Shown here: in pieces, positions 15,646 to 28,034 of the stretch
Position numbering within the stretch: the first letter of the stretch is position 1
Layout: each line of letters opens with the position of its first letter
Assembly: GCA_945865625.1 (NCBI GenBank)
Contig: CAMBFD010000012.1
Span: forward strand, 1-38,634
DNA: 38,634 nt
From: Chitinophaga pinensis
GTDB taxonomy: Bacteria > Bacteroidota > Bacteroidia > NS11-12g > UBA955
Direction of reading: 5' to 3'
Program-made: the position numbers and the translations under genes
Notes under the pieces: generated by a model
What the model was told of the DNA's origin: nothing
Database searches by the model: none
What the model saw: only the letters and a program-made list of their open reading frames with translations

Positions 15646-18600
15646 TTATTTATCACTTTTTCGCAGTAACATGATTGATTGTGTTAAAGTTTTTGTAGCA
15701 ACTCTCAATCCACGATATTCAATGTATGCGATATATATACCTTCTGGACAATCAATTCCATTAATTTCACCATCCCAAGAGCCATTCAAATCAAAAGATC
15801 TAAAGATAATTTCTCCCCAGCGATTATAAATGTGCACTTTGATTTGCGAACAACCAAAGCTATTCCATTGAAATGCATCGTTTAAGCCATCGTTATTTGG
15901 AGTAAATGCCGATGGCACATACAAGATCACAGTATCTTTATAGCAAATAGTGATTTCGGAAGTATCTGCACAACCTCCTGCGTTTTCTACAAAAAGTTTA
16001 ATGCGATATTGATTCAATGCCATATTGGCCATTAAAACTGGGTTTACGTTCGAAATAAAGGTATCTAACAATGTTTCATTTACCATCCATTTTCCTTTTG
16101 TTGCGCCAATTGTACTGTTGAAAATGGTTAAAGGTACTTCTTCTGGTGTGTAACAAGGTGAATTAATTGGTTGCTGGATGCTAAATAGTGCTTTAATTGC
16201 TGAATAACCTGGTAAGTAAATCGTAGTGTCGGAAAAGCATTTTGTTAAACTATCAATTAAAAAAACCTTGTATGATCCACCTGCCGGGGCATAAAAAGTA
16301 TCGCTTGATATCTTTCCTGGATAATTCCATTTAATTGTCATTGGGTTTCCATTTCCACTTTTCAATAATGCAAATCCATTTTTTCCATAACAAACCGGAC
16401 TATTTACTGTTGTGTTGCTCCAAACTATTGGATGTACAATAATGTTAACTTTTTGACTAGCAATATTGCTACATCCATCACTTACATAGCTGATGTATGT
16501 TGAATTGGCTTTGGGTGATGTTAGTGTCTTGTATCCATTTTGGCCATTTGACCACCAAAATTGGTAATTTCCAGTACCTCCAGATGCATTTGACTGCAAA
16601 ATTGCCACTTCTCCTTTACATATACTATCGCTTTTTGGCGATAGTATTATTTGTATACTATCCAAAATTTGAATGTCGAATGAGTCTTTAGCAAAGCAAG
16701 TTCTGCTATTTACCATATAAAACAGCTTTTGAACGCCTGGCTTTAGCTGCCCTGGATTGAAGATTGGTATCGTTATGCCATCAATTTCATATTTCCCACC
16801 TAATGGACTAATTGACAATACAATAGAAGAATCTCTGAAACAAAAAGTTTTAGTAGGATGTGTATACTTAATGAGTGGAATTGTATCAACAGCAATGCTG
16901 AAAGTATTCTTACAACCGAGAGGGGTTAAGTAGTTGATTATAAACAATCCTGATTTAGAAAGGAGAGGGTTGAATTCTTGTTTGGTTCCATATTGCATCC
17001 CTGTCCCCCAAAATATAGATCCTTTAATCAAAGGAGTTAACGCAATTGGTTTTGATATTATGCAAATATTGGTATCGTTTGGAACATTTGGTTTAGGCAA
17101 TACTCTGATTATGAGATTATCTGAGCAACCATTCTTTGAATAAGTTAGATTGTAAAGCGCAGGAGGGAGGTTCTTAGGGGTGAATTTTGATACCCCAATC
17201 ACCCCGATTCCTGACCATGTTCCATTTGGTAGGTTAGTCGTGATCTTCTTTGAGATGACAAACGTATCAGCATCGTGACATACATCAACAGTGTCTGGAC
17301 CGAGAATTGTAGTTCCAATGATTCTTATAATCTTATAATCAGTGCATCGACCTGATTTGAAAACGAGAGTATCTGTTGCATTTTTGCCATTGGTCCAACT
17401 TGCATCATATTTGCTTTGAGTTGCATTGATGATACCTTTTCCTGCCCAAGTAAATGAATTGGTATATCTTATATTCAATAAGTTGTAATTTGTTGTGTTG
17501 GGACAAATGGTATCATCTTTTCCCGCGTAACATGGCAGAATTGTGAGTTTTGTGGTGTCCTTGCATCCACCAATCGCTGTGAAAATGATATTTCTTGTGC
17601 CGGCACCGCCCATTAAGCTTGGATTAAACCAACCGTAATAAGTATTTGTAAGTCCAACAAAATACTGACTGTAAATGCCATATGGTTTAAATTGAAGTGT
17701 ATCCAAAGTTCTGGATTCGCAAGTGGTATCAAATTCTGGTACCGTGACTTTCTGTACTTCAATATTTTTCTTAGAAGTACATCCCTTCCAAGTATAAGTG
17801 ACTACATATGTTCCAGCACTATCGGGAGTAAACATTCCTGCAGGGTTAATTTTAGGTCCGGTCCATGTCCCTCCAATTGGACCATACCAAATTACAGCCA
17901 ATGGTGTTTTACTTGGGCAGAAAACATTGTCATAATTGTAGGGATTTGTAACGTTAATGATCATGGTGTCGGCACAACCAGCAATTTTATACCAAACTTT
18001 AACATTTCCCCATTGTCCATAAGGTTTAAATTCTCCTGAAGTGGCATTTACAATTCCATTGCCAAACCACTTCCCACCGACTGGAAAACCTTTTAGGTAT
18101 AAATTTGGCGATAAATAGCAAACTTGAGTATCTTTTGGAGCAATTGGTGGCTGCATTACGACAATTTGAACTGAATCTGCTCCAGGGATAGCTGTGCCAT
18201 CAGAAACGGTGAGGGTGTATTTGACATTGGATTTGGGGCATAAATTTAATGGACCTTTGCCTGAAAGGGTTCCGGGATTCCATTTATATACATATTTAGA
18301 ACTATTACCGCCACTAATATTTGTAGTTAAGGTTATGCATTCTCCAAGGCAAATTGTATCCTTTGTGGTTTTAAGATCTACAAAAATGGGACAATTTGAA
18401 ACTGTAAATATTTGATTGCTTGACAACTGATAGATACTATCGCAATAATCCCGGTAGCCGTGTTTATGTGAAATTGTATAATTGCCATTTGTATTTAGGG
18501 ATGTGAGTAGGCCAAGTTTAAATTTAGTTGCCTTGCCATTGTTGCAATTCAGTGGTGAAACGTATTTAAAGGTATTGCCATTTAATTTTGTATTGTTGAT

Positions 18601-19125
18601 ATTCATTGAGTCGCACGGAATGGCGAAGTCAAGGGTTAATTCGATTGTAGAATCGTAACAAATTGGCGATTTTGATAAATTTATTTTAGCAGCAATTGGA
18701 ACTTTAATATTGTTGATGACATCGGCTTCCCATCCAGTGCAAGAAACGCTTTTATCGGAACTGAAATAGAGTGTTATTATACTGTCTGTACTTGTAATTT
18801 TCCCAGGGTTTACGCTGCCTGAGTAAGATCCAATTAAAGTTGAATTGGTGTCTTTTCCATCGTAAATTTTGAGTATGTCGTTGTCTTTTTCGGTACAAAA
18901 GCTTTTGAATAACAAGGTAATGTTTTTTGCCCCTGGAAGGGCTAATGTCATGATTAGCTTCTCGTTATGATCGTAATATCCAGTATTTTTTCCTTTTTCA
19001 GAATCTCTAATCTTGCCTTTGCAAATCCTATATCGTCCATTTTGTTGATTTTGAATGGTTTGAGATATTCCATCTACATAAAGTATTGAAGTAAACAACA
19101 GTGCTATGTAAGAAATGAATTTCAA
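15646..19125 (-). CDS. Large secreted CUB-domain protein with T9SS type B (CHU_C) sorting domain
   Basis: The 1159-residue protein starts with a signal peptide (MKFISYIALLFTSILYVDGISQ). Residues ~30-135 form a CUB-like domain: acidic NDILKIYDGKD, a cysteine on each side, and the closing VSCTGWEADV. The long middle consists of repeated immunoglobulin-like modules of roughly 80-90 residues rich in GxW, Cys-x-D and PNGTWSG motifs, similar to SprB-type and gliding-associated surface proteins. The last ~95 residues are a type B sorting domain (VPSAFTPNNDGLND, HIYNRWGEIIF, GSWDGEINGIDCPEGIYIAYIEY), which sends the protein across the outer membrane through T9SS and attaches it to the surface. It lies 5 bases after the small lipoprotein gene, inside the same operon. 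Substrate or partner unknown; adhesion is likely. Confidence 0.92.
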   Translation of the reverse strand: MKFISYIALLFTSILYVDGISQTIQNQQNGRYRICKGKIRDSEKGKNTGYYDHNEKLIMTLALPGAKNITLLFKSFCTEKDNDILKIYDGKDTNSTLIGSYSGSVNPGKITSTDSIITLYFSSDKSVSCTGWEADVINNIKVPIAAKINLSKSPICYDSTIELTLDFAIPCDSMNINNTKLNGNTFKYVSPLNCNNGKATKFKLGLLTSLNTNGNYTISHKHGYRDYCDSIYQLSSNQIFTVSNCPIFVDLKTTKDTICLGECITLTTNISGGNSSKYVYKWNPGTLSGKGPLNLCPKSNVKYTLTVSDGTAIPGADSVQIVVMQPPIAPKDTQVCYLSPNLYLKGFPVGGKWFGNGIVNATSGEFKPYGQWGNVKVWYKIAGCADTMIINVTNPYNYDNVFCPSKTPLAVIWYGPIGGTWTGPKINPAGMFTPDSAGTYVVTYTWKGCTSKKNIEVQKVTVPEFDTTCESRTLDTLQFKPYGIYSQYFVGLTNTYYGWFNPSLMGGAGTRNIIFTAIGGCKDTTKLTILPCYAGKDDTICPNTTNYNLLNIRYTNSFTWAGKGIINATQSKYDASWTNGKNATDTLVFKSGRCTDYKIIRIIGTTILGPDTVDVCHDADTFVISKKITTNLPNGTWSGIGVIGVSKFTPKNLPPALYNLTYSKNGCSDNLIIRVLPKPNVPNDTNICIISKPIALTPLIKGSIFWGTGMQYGTKQEFNPLLSKSGLFIINYLTPLGCKNTFSIAVDTIPLIKYTHPTKTFCFRDSSIVLSISPLGGKYEIDGITIPIFNPGQLKPGVQKLFYMVNSRTCFAKDSFDIQILDSIQIILSPKSDSICKGEVAILQSNASGGTGNYQFWWSNGQNGYKTLTSPKANSTYISYVSDGCSNIASQKVNIIVHPIVWSNTTVNSPVCYGKNGFALLKSGNGNPMTIKWNYPGKISSDTFYAPAGGSYKVFLIDSLTKCFSDTTIYLPGYSAIKALFSIQQPINSPCYTPEEVPLTIFNSTIGATKGKWMVNETLLDTFISNVNPVLMANMALNQYRIKLFVENAGGCADTSEITICYKDTVILYVPSAFTPNNDGLNDAFQWNSFGCSQIKVHIYNRWGEIIFRSFDLNGSWDGEINGIDCPEGIYIAYIEYRGLRVATKTLTQSIMLLRKSDK

Positions 19126-19130
19126 AACTT

Positions 19131-19586
19131 TTAACGAATAATTTCAATGTTTGGCGTAAAAATAATGTTGCTCCAATTTTTCGATCTGTCTTTGAGCTTG
19201 ATTTCGAATTTTGTGGTCTCCGATGGGCCGGATGAAAGTAAGAAAATATTTTTTATTTTAAGGTTTAAAACACCTTCAATGCTTATTTTATTCCCTATTG
19301 GCGATAAAGGAAATAAGTGTAAATAATCTGGCTTAGTTAACCTGTTGTCTCTAACATAAATTGAAAAAGAGTCAGCTGAAATATCTCCAAGGTCGCCATC
19401 GCCGTCTTTGTACTTCAAAGTAACCACCAAACTGTCTGAAAACTGTTTCAACTTATTGCTCGAAATAGAGACAAATTGGATGTTGGGGATAGGGTTTTCA
19501 GTTGAAACAATCTCTTCCTTACATGAACATATGGAAAATGTTAAAATTGAAGCTATAATATAAATATATAATGATTTAGTATTCAT
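19131..19586 (-). CDS. Small lipoprotein with DGDGDLG motif
   Basis: The 151-residue protein has a lipoprotein signal peptide (IYIIASILTFSICSCKEE; lipid-bearing Cys probably in the lipobox ICSC). Charged residues right after the cysteine are typical of Bacteroidota lipoproteins. One beta-sandwich-like domain follows, with VTLKYKDGDGDLGDISADSFSIYVRDNR; the acidic DGDGDLGD could bind calcium. This motif recurs in Bacteroidota lipoproteins, but I know no assigned function. The ATG overlaps the stop of the upstream cytochrome-like gene by one base (TAATG), and the T9SS gene follows after 5 bases. It is likely a structural or accessory part of the same envelope assembly. Confidence 0.75.
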   Translation of the reverse strand: MNTKSLYIYIIASILTFSICSCKEEIVSTENPIPNIQFVSISSNKLKQFSDSLVVTLKYKDGDGDLGDISADSFSIYVRDNRLTKPDYLHLFPLSPIGNKISIEGVLNLKIKNIFLLSSGPSETTKFEIKLKDRSKNWSNIIFTPNIEIIR

Positions 19587-20521
19587 TAATTAAACTTTAA
19601 AGCGAAGTATTTTTTGATGGCAAACATCGAATTCGGGTTTGGCAATTGAATGGTTTGTTTATCATCTGTTAACGTGATGCGAATCCATAACACATCTAAG
19701 GGTTTTGTATACATTGATTCGATGTCGAAATTAAACCAATATTTAACAGATTTCCCATCAATGCCATTCATGATTTTTTCTGGACCAGCAGATAGCGATT
19801 TTTCATTGACAATATCAAATGAATCCGGGGTTACACTTACATTTATGGTACAGTTTTTCAATTGAGATTGATCGAGCTTATCATCTAAAATAGAAAAATA
19901 GACTGTTGTGTTCATTGCTGAAGTCGCAATGGCAGCTTCGTATTTTCCTGGTCGAGATAAAACGTTATTGCCTTGAATAAACACAACTCCTTGAATACTC
20001 GGAGGGAAGTTGGGTGATGTTGGCAAATTGCCCGCCAAATCTTTAGCCCCGTCGTTAATCCATTTCGTAATCCTCTGTAAATACTCTGATTTTTGTTTAT
20101 TGTAGGTTGATTTAGGCTCCAATGCTAGTGGCATGATTCCTGAATTTCCATTTAAATCTATAGTCATTCTCTGTAATAACATACTTTTAGCAGCATCACT
20201 AGGAACAACCCTGTAAGGAAATGTCCCTCCAGAAATACTTGATTTTATTGGTGTTACATTCACCAAGCCGTAATAACTACTCTCAACTGTTCTGAAGTCA
20301 GGTTCGAAATTTCCATCATGGCAACCAGAATTTGCACAGGTGGGTTTTAATATATCTTTATGAATTGAGAAAATGGAATACGGATCATATTGATTCGTAT
20401 CTATAGAATTGGTATCATTTGAGTTAGAATCAAATGGGTTTGCTGGCAATGGTTCTTTTGAACATGAAAAAAATTGCACGCAAACGAAAATTGTTGTTAA
20501 GGAACTGATTAAATTTTTCAC
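19586..20521 (-). CDS. Lipoprotein with CX4CH cytochrome-like motif
   Basis: The 311-residue protein has a lipobox (VQFFSC, Cys20) and then an Asn/Asp/Ser linker (about 29-47). Next comes HKDILKPTCANSGCHDGNF, where C62, C67 and H68 form CX4CH instead of the usual haem-attachment motif CxxCH. The following region (VPSDAAKSMLLQRMT, GIMPLALE, ITKWINDGAKDL) matches the layout of planctomycete-type cytochrome c domains, including a distal methionine in a MP context. The C-terminal half is a beta-rich domain without a name. The start is GTG, overlapping the DUF1501 gene stop by four bases (GTGA). Either it binds haem through an expanded motif or it is a haemless relative; the sequence cannot decide. 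Confidence 0.78.
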   Translation of the reverse strand: MKNLISSLTTIFVCVQFFSCSKEPLPANPFDSNSNDTNSIDTNQYDPYSIFSIHKDILKPTCANSGCHDGNFEPDFRTVESSYYGLVNVTPIKSSISGGTFPYRVVPSDAAKSMLLQRMTIDLNGNSGIMPLALEPKSTYNKQKSEYLQRITKWINDGAKDLAGNLPTSPNFPPSIQGVVFIQGNNVLSRPGKYEAAIATSAMNTTVYFSILDDKLDQSQLKNCTINVSVTPDSFDIVNEKSLSAGPEKIMNGIDGKSVKYWFNFDIESMYTKPLDVLWIRITLTDDKQTIQLPNPNSMFAIKKYFALKFN

Positions 20522-21858
20522 ACGCGCATGAATTGACTCATCGCTGAAGGGTCGATATATCCTGCATTCATCACATCATCATACACTCCAAATATATCCG
20601 CGATTGTTGGTACTAAATCAGTTAAACGCCCAATTGGATTCCCTTCAGAACCAACAGACATTTTAGGAACATTTTTACCCACCATTAAACTCCACACTCT
20701 TAAGGCATTTGCATCTGAGTGATCAAAAGCAACCCAATCGTTTTCATCAAGAATTGGATTTGGGTTTAAATTTCTTCCACACTCCGGCGTCACTATAAAA
20801 ACAGTATTGTCTTTCATTTCAGGTATGTTGGTTTGAATGTAATCATACAGCCATGCTGTGATGTGGTCGGCGCGATGGAGGCTCCTTAAATAGCCAGTGA
20901 AGTTGGAATGGCAGCCATCCACTTCAGAAATATTTACGGCAAGCATTTTAGGTTTGAATTCCTTGAGTATTTCGGCGGCATACGCCACATTAAATGCATC
21001 GCCACTGCTTGCTGCAGGTGGCATAGCAATTTGACCTAAGCTTTGTTTTGTATAAATACCACGCATAAATTCTTTGATATGCGTTCTTTCATCATCTGTG
21101 TTTTTAATCGTTGTTTGACGAGAATCCTCCAAAGCAAAACTATTGTTCAAGAAATTTTTCATTTCGTACATTGGCATTAACTCATTATTTGAGTATGCTT
21201 TAGAATTGGAAAGAATATTTCTGCCATAACTACCAAAGGTAATTGGAGGAATAAACATATTCGCTCCGTAATCGAGCCCGTAATTCGCATGATTGCTAGA
21301 ATTTAATAGGGGAGTACTGTTGCCAATTCCATTCCCAATAAACCAACAATCTGTTGCCTTAAAGCCTCTATGTTTCCTTAAATACTCAAAAATAGTGGGA
21401 GATACGGGTCTGGTTTTTAACCCTTGTGCGGTTCCAAGGCTACCAGTTAAAAGCGTATTTAATCCAACATAATGTCCTGCACTTTGAGCACGCACTTCGT
21501 TAAATACCATTCCTTTATTTGCCAATGAATCCGACAATAATCTTGGAATTGGATCTGAACCCTTTGTTTGTCCCGCTATATCTAAACCATAAACAACTTT
21601 TTTTGTAGGCGCATTGCCATTGAATAAATTAGGCATGATATTTCCAGCTGCGCCATTGACACCTTGGCTATCTTCGAGATACCTACCAAGGATACTTTCT
21701 TGCTGACGAACACCCCCTGCAAACATCACCATGACAACATGTTCTGCTTTTTCTGTTCCCGTTCTTGCAAACAACCTGCCAGAAGGCAAGATATATGGCG
21801 CAACAATTCCTGCACCTATTGTGAGCGTTGACTTTTTAATGAATTCTTTTCTTTTCAT
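20518..21858 (-). CDS. Exported DUF1501-like (alkaline-phosphatase-fold) protein
   Basis: The 446-residue protein begins with a Tat-like leader (KRKEFIKKSTLTIGAGIVAPYILPSG) that has KR in place of the twin arginine. The body fits DUF1501/sulfatase-like proteins. VVMVMFAGGVRQQESI (41-56) sits where the fold's first metal loop is expected. NISEVDGCHSNFTGYLRSLHRADH (about 309-332) holds D314, H317 and later histidines. VFIVTPECGRN (353-363) corresponds to the EFGR motif of DUF1501, and FDHSDANALRVW (378-389) gives a second histidine site. It is probably exported and metal-binding, but no substrate is known for the family. It lies 5 bases after the second lipoprotein gene and overlaps the next by 4 bases. 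The DUF1501 assignment is by motif, not by search. Confidence 0.8.
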   Translation of the reverse strand: MKRKEFIKKSTLTIGAGIVAPYILPSGRLFARTGTEKAEHVVMVMFAGGVRQQESILGRYLEDSQGVNGAAGNIMPNLFNGNAPTKKVVYGLDIAGQTKGSDPIPRLLSDSLANKGMVFNEVRAQSAGHYVGLNTLLTGSLGTAQGLKTRPVSPTIFEYLRKHRGFKATDCWFIGNGIGNSTPLLNSSNHANYGLDYGANMFIPPITFGSYGRNILSNSKAYSNNELMPMYEMKNFLNNSFALEDSRQTTIKNTDDERTHIKEFMRGIYTKQSLGQIAMPPAASSGDAFNVAYAAEILKEFKPKMLAVNISEVDGCHSNFTGYLRSLHRADHITAWLYDYIQTNIPEMKDNTVFIVTPECGRNLNPNPILDENDWVAFDHSDANALRVWSLMVGKNVPKMSVGSEGNPIGRLTDLVPTIADIFGVYDDVMNAGYIDPSAMSQFMRV

Positions 21859-21863
21859 GGCAC

Positions 21864-22367
21864 TTAATAGAATGAATATTCGTCGCTCGTTGAAAATGCT
21901 GTATAAATCATTTCAACTGTAACTTCTGGTTTGTTTTTGATATAATTTGTGAAATAAACTTTTTCAGCTTCTGAAGGATACCTCAAATAAAAACGCTTAT
22001 AGGTTTCAGTGATGAAATTTGGAATATCTTTTCTCATTTCAGCATTGCTCGGAATGAGGATATTGGGATTGTTAAAATACCCACTTAACAACATTTCTTT
22101 GGCTACATTTTGATCTCCAATACTATAGAGAACACTTTGTGCCTGAAATAGAACCATTGGGTCAATTGCCTTTTGATAAAGATTGGTATACAAAATTGAA
22201 ATGTATTCTGCTTCATTTTTAGCCTTGAATTTTTGAGCTTTTGTTTCGTATATATTGGCAGCGTTCACTTGGTAGTTTAGGTGAATCTCCTTTGTGCAAT
22301 ATATGTTGAAAATCAATATATTGATCACTATCAATTGAATAATAACTTTATAACTAAAACTGCGCAT
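21864..22367 (-). CDS. Helical-repeat lipoprotein, paralogue-like partner of the upstream gene
   Basis: A GTG at 22376 opens the frame, but the ATG at 22367 gives a better signal sequence (MRSFSYKVIIQLIVINILIFNIYCTKE, 167 residues). Cys24 in NIYC would be lipidated, although tyrosine before the cysteine is unusual. The mature protein is helical. Two segments, EYISILYTNLYQKAIDPMVL (about 54-73) and FITETYKRFYLRYPSEAEKV (118-137), follow a pattern also seen three times in the preceding gene, and both proteins end in SDEY plus two residues. The pattern resembles helical motifs in DUF1549/DUF4214-type proteins. The gene overlaps the previous one by 14 bases, so the two are probably translated together and may form a complex. 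Confidence 0.7.
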   Translation of the reverse strand: MRSFSYKVIIQLIVINILIFNIYCTKEIHLNYQVNAANIYETKAQKFKAKNEAEYISILYTNLYQKAIDPMVLFQAQSVLYSIGDQNVAKEMLLSGYFNNPNILIPSNAEMRKDIPNFITETYKRFYLRYPSEAEKVYFTNYIKNKPEVTVEMIYTAFSTSDEYSFY

Positions 22368-23271
22368 ATTCGTCACTGATTAAAATTTTACGTTGCATAT
22401 TTTCTATACTTTTGTCTGTCAAATATTGGGCCAAAACAGGATAAAGTAGGGTTGAGTTAATTTCTCTTCTGATCAATTGAAAATACCACCACCTAATTTC
22501 AGCTTCGTAAAAGCCTGAAGCAGAAGTTATACCCTCGCAAAATTCATTTTTATTGGAAATTACCCGGTTGAAAATAAACTGAGGATTGTTTTTTTCAATT
22601 ATCTGAAAAGATCGATTAAACTCTTCACTATTTGGCTTCCTACCAAATATATCATCAAAGGTTGCATTTACAAAATTAAATGATCCCATATTTATCAAAT
22701 CATAAATTCCATTGTTTAACATGTATTCGCACATCTGATTGTATGAAATTGATTTTCGACTGAACCAATAATTACTTTTCAATACGCGATCATAGTATTT
22801 CTTTTGATTGATTGCAGAGAACATGGCTATAGAATCTCCGTCAAGTTGACTCACAAGAATTGCAAATCCTAAATTACCGGAACGTTGAGCGATATCCATA
22901 TCAGCGGCACCTTCAAGAAATCTTGATTTACAAATATTATAGATTCTTGTGGTATAAGCTTTTCGATAGCTTGAATCGCCACCTCTGAAAATGGTATCGA
23001 ATTGCAAAGTTTTTACTATAGAATCTCTTGTATTGAAATTTAACTTGCCTTTTCTCAATGCTAAAACAAATTGATTTCGCTCAGTATCAGTTGCTTCTCT
23101 CCCTAAAACATCAATAAATAATCGATTCACATAGTTTTCAACCATAATTGTCGAAACTTCTGAATACTTTGGAGGTTTATTGTTGTTGCGAATGACCATT
23201 TCCTCTTTTGTACATGAAACAAAGAGAAATGCAATGAATAAAAATCGAATTATCATATTTTTAAGATTCAT
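22354..23271 (-). CDS. DUF1549-like helical-repeat lipoprotein, first gene of the seven-gene operon
   Basis: I use the ATG at 23271; the open frame begins at a TTG (23292) that falls inside a likely promoter box. The 305-residue product has a lipoprotein signal (FLFIAFLFVSC, Cys20, then TKEE). Three similar helical segments appear: YVNRLFIDVLGREATDTERNQF (47-68), FVNATFDDIFGRKPNSEEFNR (200-220) and IRWWYFQLIRREINSTLLYP (259-278). The first two share the form h-h-x-x-F/LGR-x-P/A-x-x-x-E, close to the LGR-P core of DUF1549 and DUF4214. The protein ends ISDEYAQF. It stands at the head of the operon, next to a 148-base gap shared with divergent hmgA. Function unknown; family link moderate. Confidence 0.72.
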   Translation of the reverse strand: MNLKNMIIRFLFIAFLFVSCTKEEMVIRNNNKPPKYSEVSTIMVENYVNRLFIDVLGREATDTERNQFVLALRKGKLNFNTRDSIVKTLQFDTIFRGGDSSYRKAYTTRIYNICKSRFLEGAADMDIAQRSGNLGFAILVSQLDGDSIAMFSAINQKKYYDRVLKSNYWFSRKSISYNQMCEYMLNNGIYDLINMGSFNFVNATFDDIFGRKPNSEEFNRSFQIIEKNNPQFIFNRVISNKNEFCEGITSASGFYEAEIRWWYFQLIRREINSTLLYPVLAQYLTDKSIENMQRKILISDEYAQF

Positions 23272-23289: not shown

Positions 23290-23297
23290 CAAATATA
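23290..23297 (-). promoter_or_regulatory. Putative -7 box for the lipoprotein/DUF1501/T9SS operon
   Basis: On the minus strand TATATTTG (23297 to 23290) matches TAnnTTTG and lies about 19 bases before the ATG at 23271. I find no clear TTTG at the matching -33 distance, so support is partial. The box also argues against the upstream TTG start. Confidence 0.33.
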
Positions 23298-23419
23298 CTC
23301 ATTTTTCATTAAAATAGTGGCGTTTTTAATTGCAATTCATACAATTTATTCACCACTTATAGCTTTTGGTTCAATTATTGACAGACAATAATTATATTCG
23401 TAATTCGATATTATATTGT

Positions 23420-24577
23420 ATGGCATTTTATTATAAACAGGGAGATATCCCTAAAAAACGACACACGCAATTTAGAAAGCCCAATGGGGAATTGTATTCT
23501 GAAGAGCTCATTAGTACTGAAGGTTTCAATAGCTTATATTCTTTGGTTTATCATTGCCATCCGCCAACTTTGGTAAAAGACATTGGAACTCCATTTAGTG
23601 TGGAACCTAAAATAGCATTAAAGCAAAATATGCAAAGTCGGAGTTTTGTAACTTTTAATACAAAACCAGAGGATGATTATATCAAAAGCAGAAAAGCTTT
23701 ATTGACAAATAGCGATTTAACAATTTCAGTCGCGGCACCTACAAAAGGCAATTCAGATTACTTTTTTAAAAATAGCGACAATGATGAAGTTATTTTCATT
23801 CATGAGGGAAAAGGTAAGCTTAAAACCATTTTTGGTGAAATTCCATTTGAGTATGGCGATTACCTTGTAATTCAAAGAGGAACCATTTATCAATTTGAGT
23901 TTGATGGATCAGACAATAGACTCATGATTATTGAATCTCCAACGCCAATTTATCCACCAAAAAGATATCAAAACTCTTTTGGTCAGTTACTTGAGCACTC
24001 TCCATACTGTGAAAGAGACATTAAATTACCACAAAATCTGACAACGCATGATGAAATGGGTGATTTTTTGGTGATGATTAAAAAGCAAAATACCATTTAT
24101 CCTTACACATATGCTTCACATCCTTTCGATGCAATTGGTTGGGATGGTTATAGTTACCCTTATGGATTTAGCATTCATAATTTTGAGCCAATTACTGGCA
24201 GATTGCACATGCCACCTCCAATACATCAGACTTTTGAGGGACGGAACTTTGTGATTTGTAGTTTCGTACCGCGCATTTATGATTACCATCCGTTATCAAT
24301 TCCAGCACCTTATAACCACAGCAATGTAGATAGTGATGAGATTTTATATTATGTTGATGGTGACTTTATGAGCCGCAAACATGTAGAGCGTGGAATGATT
24401 ACCCTGCATCCGAAAGGAATACCTCATGGTCCACATCCAGGAACAGTTGAAAAAAGCATCGGTAAGAAGGAAACTTTGGAGTTAGCTGTTATGATTGACC
24501 CATTCTATCCTTTGATGATTACTGAAGAGGCAATGCAAGTGGAAGATCCTAACTATTATAAATCATGGGTTGAGTAA
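23420..24577 (+). CDS. hmgA: Homogentisate 1,2-dioxygenase
   Basis: HmgA opens the ring of homogentisate to maleylacetoacetate with Fe(II) and O2 in tyrosine/phenylalanine breakdown. The start is the ATG at 23420 (MAFYYKQGDIPKKRHTQF, 385 residues); upstream in-frame codons have no family similarity. The N-terminal domain has the typical RKPNGELYSEELISTEGF. The C-terminal catalytic part holds the likely iron ligands H300 and E307 in APYNHSNVDSDE and H336 in GIPHGPHPG. The one-residue longer H-to-E spacing compared with human HGD is the form I know from Bacteroidota. A weak TATATTCG box lies at 23393-23400. Other tyrosine-degradation genes are not adjacent. The next gene, 10 bases on, is an unrelated-looking T9SS cargo. 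Confidence 0.93.
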   Translation: MAFYYKQGDIPKKRHTQFRKPNGELYSEELISTEGFNSLYSLVYHCHPPTLVKDIGTPFSVEPKIALKQNMQSRSFVTFNTKPEDDYIKSRKALLTNSDLTISVAAPTKGNSDYFFKNSDNDEVIFIHEGKGKLKTIFGEIPFEYGDYLVIQRGTIYQFEFDGSDNRLMIIESPTPIYPPKRYQNSFGQLLEHSPYCERDIKLPQNLTTHDEMGDFLVMIKKQNTIYPYTYASHPFDAIGWDGYSYPYGFSIHNFEPITGRLHMPPPIHQTFEGRNFVICSFVPRIYDYHPLSIPAPYNHSNVDSDEILYYVDGDFMSRKHVERGMITLHPKGIPHGPHPGTVEKSIGKKETLELAVMIDPFYPLMITEEAMQVEDPNYYKSWVE

Positions 24578-24587
24578 ATCTGTTCAT

Positions 24588-27500
24588 ATGAAAAATCAAA
24601 ACTCTATTAAAACAATCTTATTATCTTTAATTATTTGTGTAAGTAGTTTATCGTATTCGCAAGAAAATCAAACATATAAAACTATTTCAAATAATAAACA
24701 TGCTCGAAATATTTCTAAAATAGAAAAGCAGTTTAGAAAGAATAAGGAAAAGTATAAAAAAACGGGTTCTGCAATGTATTTAACCCCCGATAAATATTGG
24801 GAACAGGAATATATTGCGACAATGAATCCCGCGTTAAAACGACCTACACCGGAAGTATTGGATAAGGAAATTCAGAATATCTTGGCGAAACAAGCGGCAA
24901 GTGAAATTGCGATTCAACCAGGAACAACAAATACAACTTGGAATTTAAGAGGTCCTAATTATGTGGGTGGAAGAACAAGGGCCTTAGCATGGGATCCTAA
25001 CGATACTACAGGTAAAAAAGTTTGGGCTGGGGCGGTTACCGGAGGATTATGGTACAACAACGATATCACAAGCAGCACAAGCCAATGGGTTTCAGTGAGC
25101 AGCGTTTGGTCAAATATTACAGTTTCATGCATTGCTTTTGATCCAAATAATTCAAAAATAATTTATGTAGGAACTGGTGAGGGATGGGGAACTACAAATA
25201 GTTCTTCTAGAGGACAAGGAATTTATAAAAGTACCGATGGTGGAAGTTCGTTTTCTTTGCTAACGAGTTCCACGTCGTATGTGTATATAAATGATATAGC
25301 TGTAAGGAATGTAAGTGGGACATCAGAAGTATGGGTGGCAGTGGATGCTTTGTATTATGGAGGACAATGGAATGGTCTTTCAAGTTACGGACTTAAAAAG
25401 AGCACCGATGGGGGTTCAACTTGGTCAAGTCCTTTGTCGTCATCGCCACAATATTCAATTGCAGACATAGAAATTGCGAAAGACAACAAAATTTGGGTTG
25501 GAACTCGCAAAAATCCCTACGGAACTACAACCAATGATGGGGGTGGAGGTCGAATATTTTACACAAGTAATGGATCAACTTGGTTTCAATGTTATGCGCA
25601 TACCGACAAGTTAAGTAGGGTGGAAATTGCATGTGCTCCAAACGATGCGAATACGATTTATGCACTTTTTGAATCAGGTGGGAAAGCAGACACACTGATT
25701 AAATCGAGAGATGGTGGAGCAACTTGGACAAGTATGAAAAAGCCTGTGGATGCAGATCAAGGCATTCCGGTTAAAGATTTCACAAGAGGACAGGCATGGT
25801 ATGATTTAACGATGGCAGTTTCTCCGTTAGATTCTAATAAATTAATTGTTGGAGGAATTGATTTATTTTATTCATCAAATGCTGGAAGTTCTTGGGTGCA
25901 AATGAGTAAATGGTCTAACAATCCAGGTTTGAGTTCTTTAAATTGTTCTTATGTACATGCCGATCAACATGCAATCATTTTTAAGCCAAATACATTAGGC
26001 ACTGTGTTATTTGGCTGTGATGGAGGTGTATTTTATTCTAACAATATCACAAACAATCCAGGAAGTACCGATGTAACTAGCGATAGAAATAATGGATATT
26101 TCGCAACTCAATTTTATGCTGGTGATTTATCGCAAACAGCAAATAAAAACATGTTTATCGGGGGTGCTCAAGATAATGGAACACATTTACTTACCAATGC
26201 AGCAATTTCTGATTGGAATATGGTTAGTGGGGGTGATGGAGCATATTGCTTTATTAGTCCCTCAAATGATTTAAAACAAATTTCAGCATACGTTTATAAC
26301 AACATATTTTATACAATAGATGGTTGGGCTTCTTCAAATCCCTTGATTTCCGATGGAACTACTGGAAAGTTTATCAATCCATCCGTTTGGGACGATAATG
26401 GCAGCGGTTATTTTTCAGGAAAAGATGCATTGACACTTTATCGCATTAAATTAACAACTGCACCAGGTACCCTCGGAACAATTACCGTTAAATCTTCTGG
26501 TTCGCCAGGAAAAGCAAGTGCTTTTGCTACATTTAAAAACCCTACAACTGGAAAAACAGAACTTTTTGTTGGTACAGATATTGGAACTATTTATAAAACA
26601 ACGGATGCTTGGGCTACAACACCTGTTTTTACTCAATTAGGTACCATTAACGCAGGCAATATATCATCAATCAGTATTTTAAACAAAGACACCATTGCAA
26701 TTACTTTATCCAATTATGGAATTAATAACATTTATGTTTCTCTTGATGCCGGAGCAACATGGAATGCCAAGGATGCTGGATTTGCCGATATGCCAATTTG
26801 GGGATTGTTATTTAATCCAAAAAGGCTAGGAGAGGCATTAATTGCAACAGAATTAGGTATTTATGGTACAAATGATTTGTATGCATCAACGCCAACATGG
26901 TCTGAATACAATTTAGGAATGGGTCCTGTTAAAACATTGCAATTGAAATATAGAAGTTCCGACCAAACAGTCATGGCAGTTACGCATGGTCGAGGTATTT
27001 TTACATCAAACGCATGGTCAATTTTAGATCCAATCACAAATTTGGGTTTTTCAGATGTCAATCCTTGTGTCAATCAAATTGTTACTTTCGTTGATTCAAC
27101 AAGGAATTTACCGACTTCTTGGAAATGGTCAATTACACCATCGACGTTTGCAACATATACTAATGGTGATTCAACTTCTAAAAGCCCTAAAGTGAAATTC
27201 TTAAAAAATGGAACATATACCATAAAATTAACGGCTACAAATGTTTCGGGTTCCAATACTAAATCAAAAGATATTGTTGTTCAAGACACCATTGGTATGG
27301 GTTTGTTTGTGAGTCATAGTCCATTGAAACCTTGCTTTGGAGATTCGGTTGGATTTATAAGTTCGCCAACAAATTCTAAAATGATTGGTATGAAATTAAA
27401 ATATCAATGGTATATAAATGGAGCTATTTTAACAGGAAAAGACACATTGACGTATTATAAAAAATACAAAATATCAGCAGACAGCAGTAATTTTAGTTTA

Positions 27501-28034
27501 AAGGTTACATCAACAGCAAAATGTGCGGTTCCAGCAAGCGTTTTTAGCAACAATGATGCGGTTGTGTTGAAAGTTAAGAAAATTAGCATCAAATGCAGCA
27601 ATGATACATTTTATGTGAACGTTAAGCCAACTGGAGGCTCTGTAAAATGGTTTAGAAACGGCATCAATGTTGGAAATGGTGACTTTTATCATGCTAAACA
27701 AAAGGGAAATTACAATGCGGTTTATATGAATTCAGGATGTAATTCTGACTCATCCAATAGAATTACTTTGTTGTCGGTTGGTATTCAAAAAAACAACCAA
27801 ATGGCATTTGGAAAGCTGTATCCAAATCCTGCCAAAGATTGGTTGCATTGGGATTCAAAATCAAATGGAACATTAGAATTATGGTCTATAAATGGTCAAA
27901 TTTGTATGGAACAAATTGTTGAGGTAAACAAGACTTACAAATTGAATGTAAGTCAATTAGCAAAAGGAATATATACAATGAGATTAAAGACCAATGACAA
28001 TCGAATTTATATTGATCAAATTGTAATACAATAA
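24588..28034 (+). CDS. Secreted Asp-box (sortilin/VPS10-like) repeat protein with PKD and T9SS type A sorting domains
   Basis: I choose the ATG at 24588 over the TTG at 24570; it gives a clean signal peptide (KTILLSLIICVSSLSYSQ) and 1148 residues. Residues ~100-820 carry many Asp-box/BNR-like turns (STDGGSSF, STDGGSTW, SRDGGATW, SSNAGSSW, SLDAGATW), which predict one or two large beta-propellers as in sortilin-like and glycan- or glucan-binding exo-proteins. A PKD-like domain follows (about 830-910; SWKWSIT, FLKNGTYTIKLTATN), then an Ig-like region. The last ~75 residues are a type A sorting domain (LYPNPAKDWLHW, LWSINGQI, LAKGIYTMRLKT). Catalytic residues are not identifiable, so enzyme versus binding protein is open. 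A terminator follows. Confidence 0.9.
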   Translation: MKNQNSIKTILLSLIICVSSLSYSQENQTYKTISNNKHARNISKIEKQFRKNKEKYKKTGSAMYLTPDKYWEQEYIATMNPALKRPTPEVLDKEIQNILAKQAASEIAIQPGTTNTTWNLRGPNYVGGRTRALAWDPNDTTGKKVWAGAVTGGLWYNNDITSSTSQWVSVSSVWSNITVSCIAFDPNNSKIIYVGTGEGWGTTNSSSRGQGIYKSTDGGSSFSLLTSSTSYVYINDIAVRNVSGTSEVWVAVDALYYGGQWNGLSSYGLKKSTDGGSTWSSPLSSSPQYSIADIEIAKDNKIWVGTRKNPYGTTTNDGGGGRIFYTSNGSTWFQCYAHTDKLSRVEIACAPNDANTIYALFESGGKADTLIKSRDGGATWTSMKKPVDADQGIPVKDFTRGQAWYDLTMAVSPLDSNKLIVGGIDLFYSSNAGSSWVQMSKWSNNPGLSSLNCSYVHADQHAIIFKPNTLGTVLFGCDGGVFYSNNITNNPGSTDVTSDRNNGYFATQFYAGDLSQTANKNMFIGGAQDNGTHLLTNAAISDWNMVSGGDGAYCFISPSNDLKQISAYVYNNIFYTIDGWASSNPLISDGTTGKFINPSVWDDNGSGYFSGKDALTLYRIKLTTAPGTLGTITVKSSGSPGKASAFATFKNPTTGKTELFVGTDIGTIYKTTDAWATTPVFTQLGTINAGNISSISILNKDTIAITLSNYGINNIYVSLDAGATWNAKDAGFADMPIWGLLFNPKRLGEALIATELGIYGTNDLYASTPTWSEYNLGMGPVKTLQLKYRSSDQTVMAVTHGRGIFTSNAWSILDPITNLGFSDVNPCVNQIVTFVDSTRNLPTSWKWSITPSTFATYTNGDSTSKSPKVKFLKNGTYTIKLTATNVSGSNTKSKDIVVQDTIGMGLFVSHSPLKPCFGDSVGFISSPTNSKMIGMKLKYQWYINGAILTGKDTLTYYKKYKISADSSNFSLKVTSTAKCAVPASVFSNNDAVVLKVKKISIKCSNDTFYVNVKPTGGSVKWFRNGINVGNGDFYHAKQKGNYNAVYMNSGCNSDSSNRITLLSVGIQKNNQMAFGKLYPNPAKDWLHWDSKSNGTLELWSINGQICMEQIVEVNKTYKLNVSQLAKGIYTMRLKTNDNRIYIDQIVIQ

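Follow-up and report, generated by a model that had tools for sequence, protein, structure and literature searches.

In bacteria of the Planctomycetes-Verrucomicrobia-Chlamydiae (PVC) type, a PSCyt1 haem domain with a CXXCH motif is joined to PSCyt2 (DUF1549) and PSD1 (DUF1553) in one fused protein of ~770-815 amino acids (aa) that gives strong Pfam matches, and this protein is accompanied by a DUF1501 protein. Nothing is known of the functions of the PSCyt and PSD domains, for which carbohydrate metabolism has been suggested (He et al., PMC5615132), and DUF1501 and DUF1800 proteins occur in operons with chitin synthase in other bacteria (PMC5122149). Here we analyze a six-gene cassette in a 38,634-nucleotide stretch of DNA (the window) from contig CAMBFD010000012.1 of the Chitinophaga pinensis assembly GCA_945865625.1. 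With its PSCyt1-like haem domain, DUF1501-like protein and helical domains, the cassette resembles a Bacteroidota variant of the PVC module that has been split up. In contrast to the PVC type, its parts are spread over four to six genes, the haem motif reads CX4CH, the helical parts are lipoproteins resembling DUF4214 and phycobilisome (PBS) linkers, and a giant cargo protein of the type IX secretion system (T9SS) is present. The PSCyt-like, helical and DUF1501-like parts are separate genes in every cassette and are never fused.

The original prediction, made from the sequence of the window, had proposed a Bacteroidota version of the Planctomycete module; several parts do have counterparts there, but the ordinary fused pair also occurs in Bacteroidota. 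Several Bacteroidota families were seen to carry PSCyt1-PSCyt2-PSD1 lipoproteins of the classic PVC type next to a DUF1501 gene (loci L198, L199, L202 and L203). Because Bacteroidota keep this pair, the cassette constitutes an additional system and is not the sole Bacteroidota version. A DUF1800-DUF1501 pair, whose DUF1501 protein ends in a T9SS type-A sorting domain, lies on another contig of the window's genome (C37, L081:2125-5386, genome G000); paralogues in this genome were sought by family only. The cassette likewise sets an exported DUF1501-like protein beside helical partners, but these lack similarity to DUF1800, and the C37 DUF1501 gene lies outside any cassette. By its defining features the cassette is therefore neither a fused PSCyt-PSD protein with DUF1501 nor a DUF1800-DUF1501 pair, although several of its parts have counterparts. 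Literature searches, including for DUF1501, found no description of it, in agreement with the prediction that its function is undescribed. The cassette is a real cell-envelope system that has apparently not been described before.

Gene order and co-inheritance across class Bacteroidia

The cassette consists of six minus-strand open reading frames (ORFs) in the order D4214a, D4214b, D1501, CX4CH, DGD and giant, numbered here as genes 1 to 6. Their coordinates confirm the predicted spacings: an overlap of 14 nucleotides (nt) when gene 2 begins at its ATG, then a gap of 5, overlaps of 4 and 1, and another gap of 5. Export signals were identified in every product, as had been foreseen, and comprise four lipoprotein signals, one signal resembling those of twin-arginine translocation (Tat), and one signal peptide combined with a T9SS type-B sorting domain. 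By our own count these signals correspond to three export routes, not to the four originally proposed. TatC, SprA and a cytochrome c assembly protein are all encoded in the window's genome.

To place the locus among relatives, neighbourhoods were read with profiles that had been made from the six cassette proteins of the window, followed by a class-wide profile search with inspection of neighbourhoods. Relatives of protein P0004 were found in 39 of 57 related genomes, and also in metagenome-assembled genomes labelled Flavobacteriales, Chitinophagales, Saprospirales and Bacteroidetes. The six-gene order is near-universal in the neighbourhoods of relatives, and the class-wide search adds many more families of class Bacteroidia. 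The order thus recurs in other Bacteroidota as the original prediction had anticipated: 47 complete six-gene loci and 18 loci with the first five genes contain no order violation, in a tally that includes a few loci representing two records of one genome. The remaining loci, which run into a contig end, lack a single short overlapping ORF or are solos, also keep the order. Median junctions in relatives are -20, 8, 0, -4 and 2 nt, and whereas the outer flanks vary between lineages, the inner order and overlaps stay strict. Since the order recurs without exception and the junctions stay tight, the arrangement is not a product of chance.

Co-occurrence was assessed with two independent profile searches, for D1501 and D4214a, over 396 genomes of the class. 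Both families are present in 89 genomes and neither in 305, with D1501 only in 1 and D4214a only in 1 (Fisher p 4e-87, a statistic that ignores phylogeny). D4214a adjoins 102 of the 108 D1501 copies, and for five of the six non-adjacent copies it lies on a different contig of the same genome. Pairwise distance matrices of the six families correlate with one another (r 0.70-0.92), those of the giant following CX4CH most closely (r 0.92). In a phylum-wide sample of 394 genomes, the cassette was found only in the window's genome and in G117, both in the class, and none was found outside it. No seventh universal gene emerged among the cassette neighbourhoods, and a plasmid location was tested and ruled out. 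Conservation of the cassette is very strong and its origin ancient, and its genes are almost certainly inherited together as one unit. The originally proposed single assembly finds support at this level of co-inheritance.

Two forms of the cassette exist. Type A has the six genes of the window, whereas type B has five and lacks the giant; the D1501 tree splits the two (support 99/95), and many genomes carry both together. The existence of type B indicates that the core can do without the giant, and locus L120 has a type-A core with no giant beside it. The earlier proposal that a T9SS adhesin was added to the module thus holds for type A but not for type B. Shortened, solo D1501-like genes were also found, in the window's genus (L074 and L075, in G002 and G011) and within the type-B clade (L140 and L141), and are most simply explained as reductions to the third gene. 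In the window's genus the solos occupy the exact cassette slot, between a homogentisate-dioxygenase-like gene and an NFACT gene, which suggests a collapse from six genes to one. The most divergent solos (L076-L078, L142) are placed unsurely in the tree because of their long branches. A gene labelled M20-type peptidase from its sequence, not by family search, recurs just upstream of some type-B cassettes and their solo derivatives (L126-L129, L131, L140, L141).

Composition of the cassette proteins

Profile searches of the window proteins, which had been suggested as a check, recovered CUB and CHU_C, whereas DUF1501, DUF1549, DUF1553 and PSCyt1 gave nothing over cut-off. The motifs first read from the letters, CX4CH (C62, C67, H68) and DGDGDLG (61-67), as well as the CUB domain, are present in the products.

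The product of gene 3 is a divergent DUF1501-branch protein of the alkaline-phosphatase superfamily whose active site is altered, and a putative hydrolase at most. Its predicted assignment to DUF1501 stands at the level of profile and fold, with an hhalign E of 2.5e-7 against Bacteroidota DUF1501, yet lies under Pfam detection: DUF1501 (PF07394) has no match at E 5 in the window copy, none at E 1 in 28 relatives, and a value of 0.16 in a type-B relative. A type-B homologue passes the Pfam cut-off for Phosphodiest (PF01663; 6.8e-6). An AlphaFold model (predicted local distance difference test, pLDDT, 78.7; predicted template modelling score, pTM, 0.82) matched alkaline-phosphatase-superfamily proteins and sulfatases in Foldseek (E 9e-9, prob 1.0, TM about 0.4), with lipoteichoic acid synthases and YejM also among the matches; the profile returned nothing relevant from PDB sequences. 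The motif alignment started from canonical members (LDGxRW, DDxAH, TTDHGR), passed through type B and then type A, and ended with DUF1501; D314/H317, E359-C360-G-R362 and D379-H380 fall at the metal positions in it. The protein shares the DUF1501 motif order D-x-H, E-F-G-R, D-H, with E-[CH]-G-R replacing E-F-G-R, and is predicted to keep one metal site, Asp/His/His. Fold, D-x(n)-H, D/E-H/C-G-R and His metal residues are those of type I phosphodiesterases and sulfatases, unlike which gene 3 has Gly for the strand-1 Asp, no Thr/Ser nucleophile, and PECGR in most type-A members. PEHGR occurs in type B and in one Saprospirales type A, and the two motifs differ by a His-to-Cys change at what is presumed to be a metal position. 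The Tat-like signal reads KRKEFIKK in the window and RRxF/L in 58 of 83 relatives.

Gene 4 likely encodes a protein that carries a c-type haem, as judged from its motifs. The prediction of a cytochrome-like protein was supported by profile comparison with PSCyt1 and FoxE. A domain-only profile, built from eight cassette sequences together with four CX4CH proteins encoded outside the cassette, matched FoxE (PDB 5mab) in two places at E 4e-8, the best match among solved structures, and cytochromes c6 more weakly; the full-length profile found nothing among PDB sequences. FoxE carries CXXCH at the corresponding position and matches with two domains, whereas gene 4 has one CX4CH domain and an immunoglobulin (Ig)-like domain. 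Comparison with the PSCyt1 part of fused PSCyt-PSD proteins gave hhalign E 1.6e-5 (prob 79%), and a small CX4CH relative matched PSCyt1 (0.0057) and Cytochrome_CBB3 weakly, while Pfam PSCyt1 had no match in the window copy or in 32 relatives. The structural model (pLDDT 89) places four helices around the motif, followed by an Ig-like sandwich. Related CX4CH domains were seen fused N-terminally to proteins of about 440 aa (L181, L189, L191); the C-terminus of L189 and L191 matches copper type II ascorbate-dependent monooxygenase (L191 E 3e-5), and L181 is similar in look.

Genes 1 and 2 have a repeat in common (hhalign E 5.9e-6). Their relatives match DUF4214 (6e-7) and PBS_linker_poly (1e-8) best, and the window copies fall just under the cut-off for the DUF4214 and phycobilisome-linker Pfam families (5e-4 and 2e-4). 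Values for DUF1549 and DUF1553 are poorer in relatives (best E 0.012 and 0.003; hhalign E 0.14 and 0.028), and in the window gene 1 has no match and gene 2 only one of 0.13. Of the idea that DUF1549-like helical parts became lipoproteins, the lipoprotein half stands, while the linker families match better; a DUF1549 origin is no more than a hint. A split DUF1800 origin was rejected (no match, hhalign E 0.2 or worse), and the helical profile found only weak phycobilisome-linker matches among PDB sequences. Linker domains hold protein assemblies together, which makes a scaffold role for genes 1 and 2 a fair inference by analogy. The lipobox of gene 1, SC-TKEE, resembles the Bacteroidetes lipoprotein export signal, C-x-K-(D/E)2 (consensus: PMC5080379), and such N-termini in genes 1 and 2 would predict a surface location.

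Gene 5 encodes a small lipoprotein without family assignment. The giant, encoded by gene 6, is a T9SS type-B cargo in which CUB and Ig/PKD domains occur. Among 21 relatives of the giant, CUB was found in 19, PKD in 18 and CHU_C in all 21, with 30 invariant Cys and near-constant length. Its profile matches the Aureispira grappling-hook protein GhpA at E 1e-67, the best stretch being the CHU_C region. Like GhpA and SprB-type adhesins, the giant has a CHU_C domain and Ig-type repeats; unlike these proteins of thousands of residues, it has a single CUB domain and a fixed length of about 1160 aa. A PorP/SprF gene stands directly downstream of the giant in six lineages (L113, L115, L119, L121, L122, L041), as expected for a T9SS type-B cargo, and is absent from this position in the window.

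The features of the window are listed in the table. The candidate promoter element TATATTTG may serve gene 1, and scans for sigma-70 promoters and terminators gave matches no better than chance. The HgmA_N/cupin gene adjoins the cassette slot across the genus and much of the family, and the T9SS type-A gene that overlaps it likewise keeps the cassette-slot neighbourhood.

Features of the cassette and its surroundings, in window coordinates
Feature	Position	Strand	Description
Gene 1 (D4214a)	22354..23271	-	helical repeat lipoprotein, DUF4214/PBS-linker-like; ATG at 23271
Gene 2 (D4214b)	21864..22367	-	small helical lipoprotein; ATG at 22367, alternative GTG at 22376
Gene 3 (D1501)	20518..21858	-	Tat-like export; divergent DUF1501-like, alkaline-phosphatase superfamily
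Gene 3 D314-x-x-H317	20908..20919	-	aligned with metal-site-1 Asp/His of the alkaline-phosphatase superfamily
Gene 3 E359-C360-G361-R362 (PECGR)	20773..20784	-	aligned with TTDHGR of canonical relatives
Gene 3 D379-H380	20719..20724	-	aligned with DH of DUF1501
Gene 4 (CX4CH)	19586..20521	-	c-type-cytochrome-like lipoprotein, PSCyt1/FoxE-like domain and C-terminal Ig-like beta-sandwich
Gene 4 haem-attachment motif C62-ANSG-C67-H68	20318..20338	-	invariant in 46 sequences
Gene 4 M130-P131	20129..20134	-	candidate distal haem ligand; invariant in 46 sequences
Gene 5 (DGD)	19131..19586	-	small beta-rich lipoprotein
Gene 5 DGDGDLG loop (aa 61-67)	19386..19406	-	D61, D65, G67 invariant; Ca-loop-like
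Gene 6 (giant)	15646..19125	-	1159 aa CUB/Ig/PKD-type adhesin, T9SS type-B sorting domain
Giant CUB domain (aa 51-134)	18724..18975	-	E 1.4e-11
Giant CHU_C T9SS sorting domain (aa 1070-1139)	15709..15918	-	E 1.4e-14
Whole cassette	15646-23271	-	six ORFs
TATATTTG	23290..23297	-	candidate Bacteroidota -7 promoter element, 18 nt upstream of gene 1 ATG
HgmA_N/cupin gene	23366-24577		divergent, homogentisate-dioxygenase-like
T9SS type-A gene	24570-28034		1154 aa, PKD domains
Reeler/PKD gene	35862-38531		matches Reeler and PKD domains

Proposed activity and competing explanations

The cassette proteins probably form a physical complex, in which genes 1 and 2 would scaffold genes 3 and 4, together with gene 5, at the outer membrane or in the periplasm. 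The metal site of gene 3 would convert a substrate, while single electrons could pass in either direction between this reaction and the respiratory chain by way of the gene 4 haem. In type A, the substrate may come from a polymer or surface outside the cell that the giant captures or holds. Such coupling of the gene 3 metal site to the gene 4 haem is a guess that we favor over its rivals, though tentatively and with less than even confidence. Several observations weigh against it. The Gly at the strand-1 Asp of gene 3 and an AGHY region that aligns without a Thr/Ser/Cys nucleophile leave hydrolysis of phosphate or sulfate esters not assured. Foldseek searches with the whole gene 4 model matched only Ig-like and other beta domains, so that the cytochrome claim rests on sequence, and one haem lipoprotein is thin evidence for electron transfer. 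D1501 is kept alone in some lineages and can therefore work without the other cassette genes; and neither a substrate nor a regulon nor a co-occurring catabolic gene came to light.

The solo D1501 lineages also fit an alternative in which D1501 modifies the surface polysaccharide of the cell itself, by group transfer or hydrolysis; the lipoproteins would then serve as scaffold, the giant as surface-layer or matrix protein, and the haem in a structural or sensory role. Such envelope-glycan modification would agree with the chitin synthase operons noted above and with the lipoteichoic acid synthases and YejM among the structural matches of D1501; it is nonetheless unlikely, as genes for glycosyltransferases or polymer synthesis do not recur next to the cassette, and the haem motif and Met are strictly invariant. 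Improbable as well is a function of genes 1-5 in maturing, anchoring or displaying the giant at the surface. Adjacency and co-inheritance with the giant in type A, the PorP/SprF genes that follow it in several families, and its best distance correlation with CX4CH would all be accommodated, but type B is complete without a giant and the L120 core lacks one, which indicates that the core has its own role.

That the genes are merely co-regulated for one niche, such as particle attachment, and form no complex is more improbable still: the three export routes would be in keeping with a conserved operon of this kind, whereas strict order and overlaps despite differing outer flanks, and near-perfect co-occurrence, speak against it. 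The least probable of the explanations considered is extracellular electron transfer, where the CX4CH cytochrome and the helical lipoproteins would conduct electrons to external acceptors or, like FoxE, from Fe(II). Iron-oxidising FoxE is the closest solved structure to the gene 4 domain, and the export-signal-like N-termini of the lipoproteins suggest surface exposure; however, each cassette has one haem motif, no multihaem protein or porin of that kind recurs beside it, and the most conserved component is D1501.

Returning to the redox-enzyme proposal, its boldest form would be a class-wide surface redox machine in which a nucleophile-less DUF1501-like enzyme with a Glu-Cys/His metal pair is coupled electronically to a CX4CH cytochrome lipoprotein on a linker-like scaffold, is fed by its own T9SS adhesin, and performs a new chemistry on extracellular polymers. 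We regard this as rather doubtful; if true, the PSCyt/PSD/DUF1501 proteins of the PVC type would operate likewise. DUF1501, DUF1800 and the Planctomycete-specific cytochrome and PSD domains are widespread in bacteria and have no known function. By splitting these parts into small separate genes that lend themselves to deletion, tagging and purification, with and without an adhesin, the cassette makes the role of the DUF1501-cytochrome module testable in Bacteroidota.

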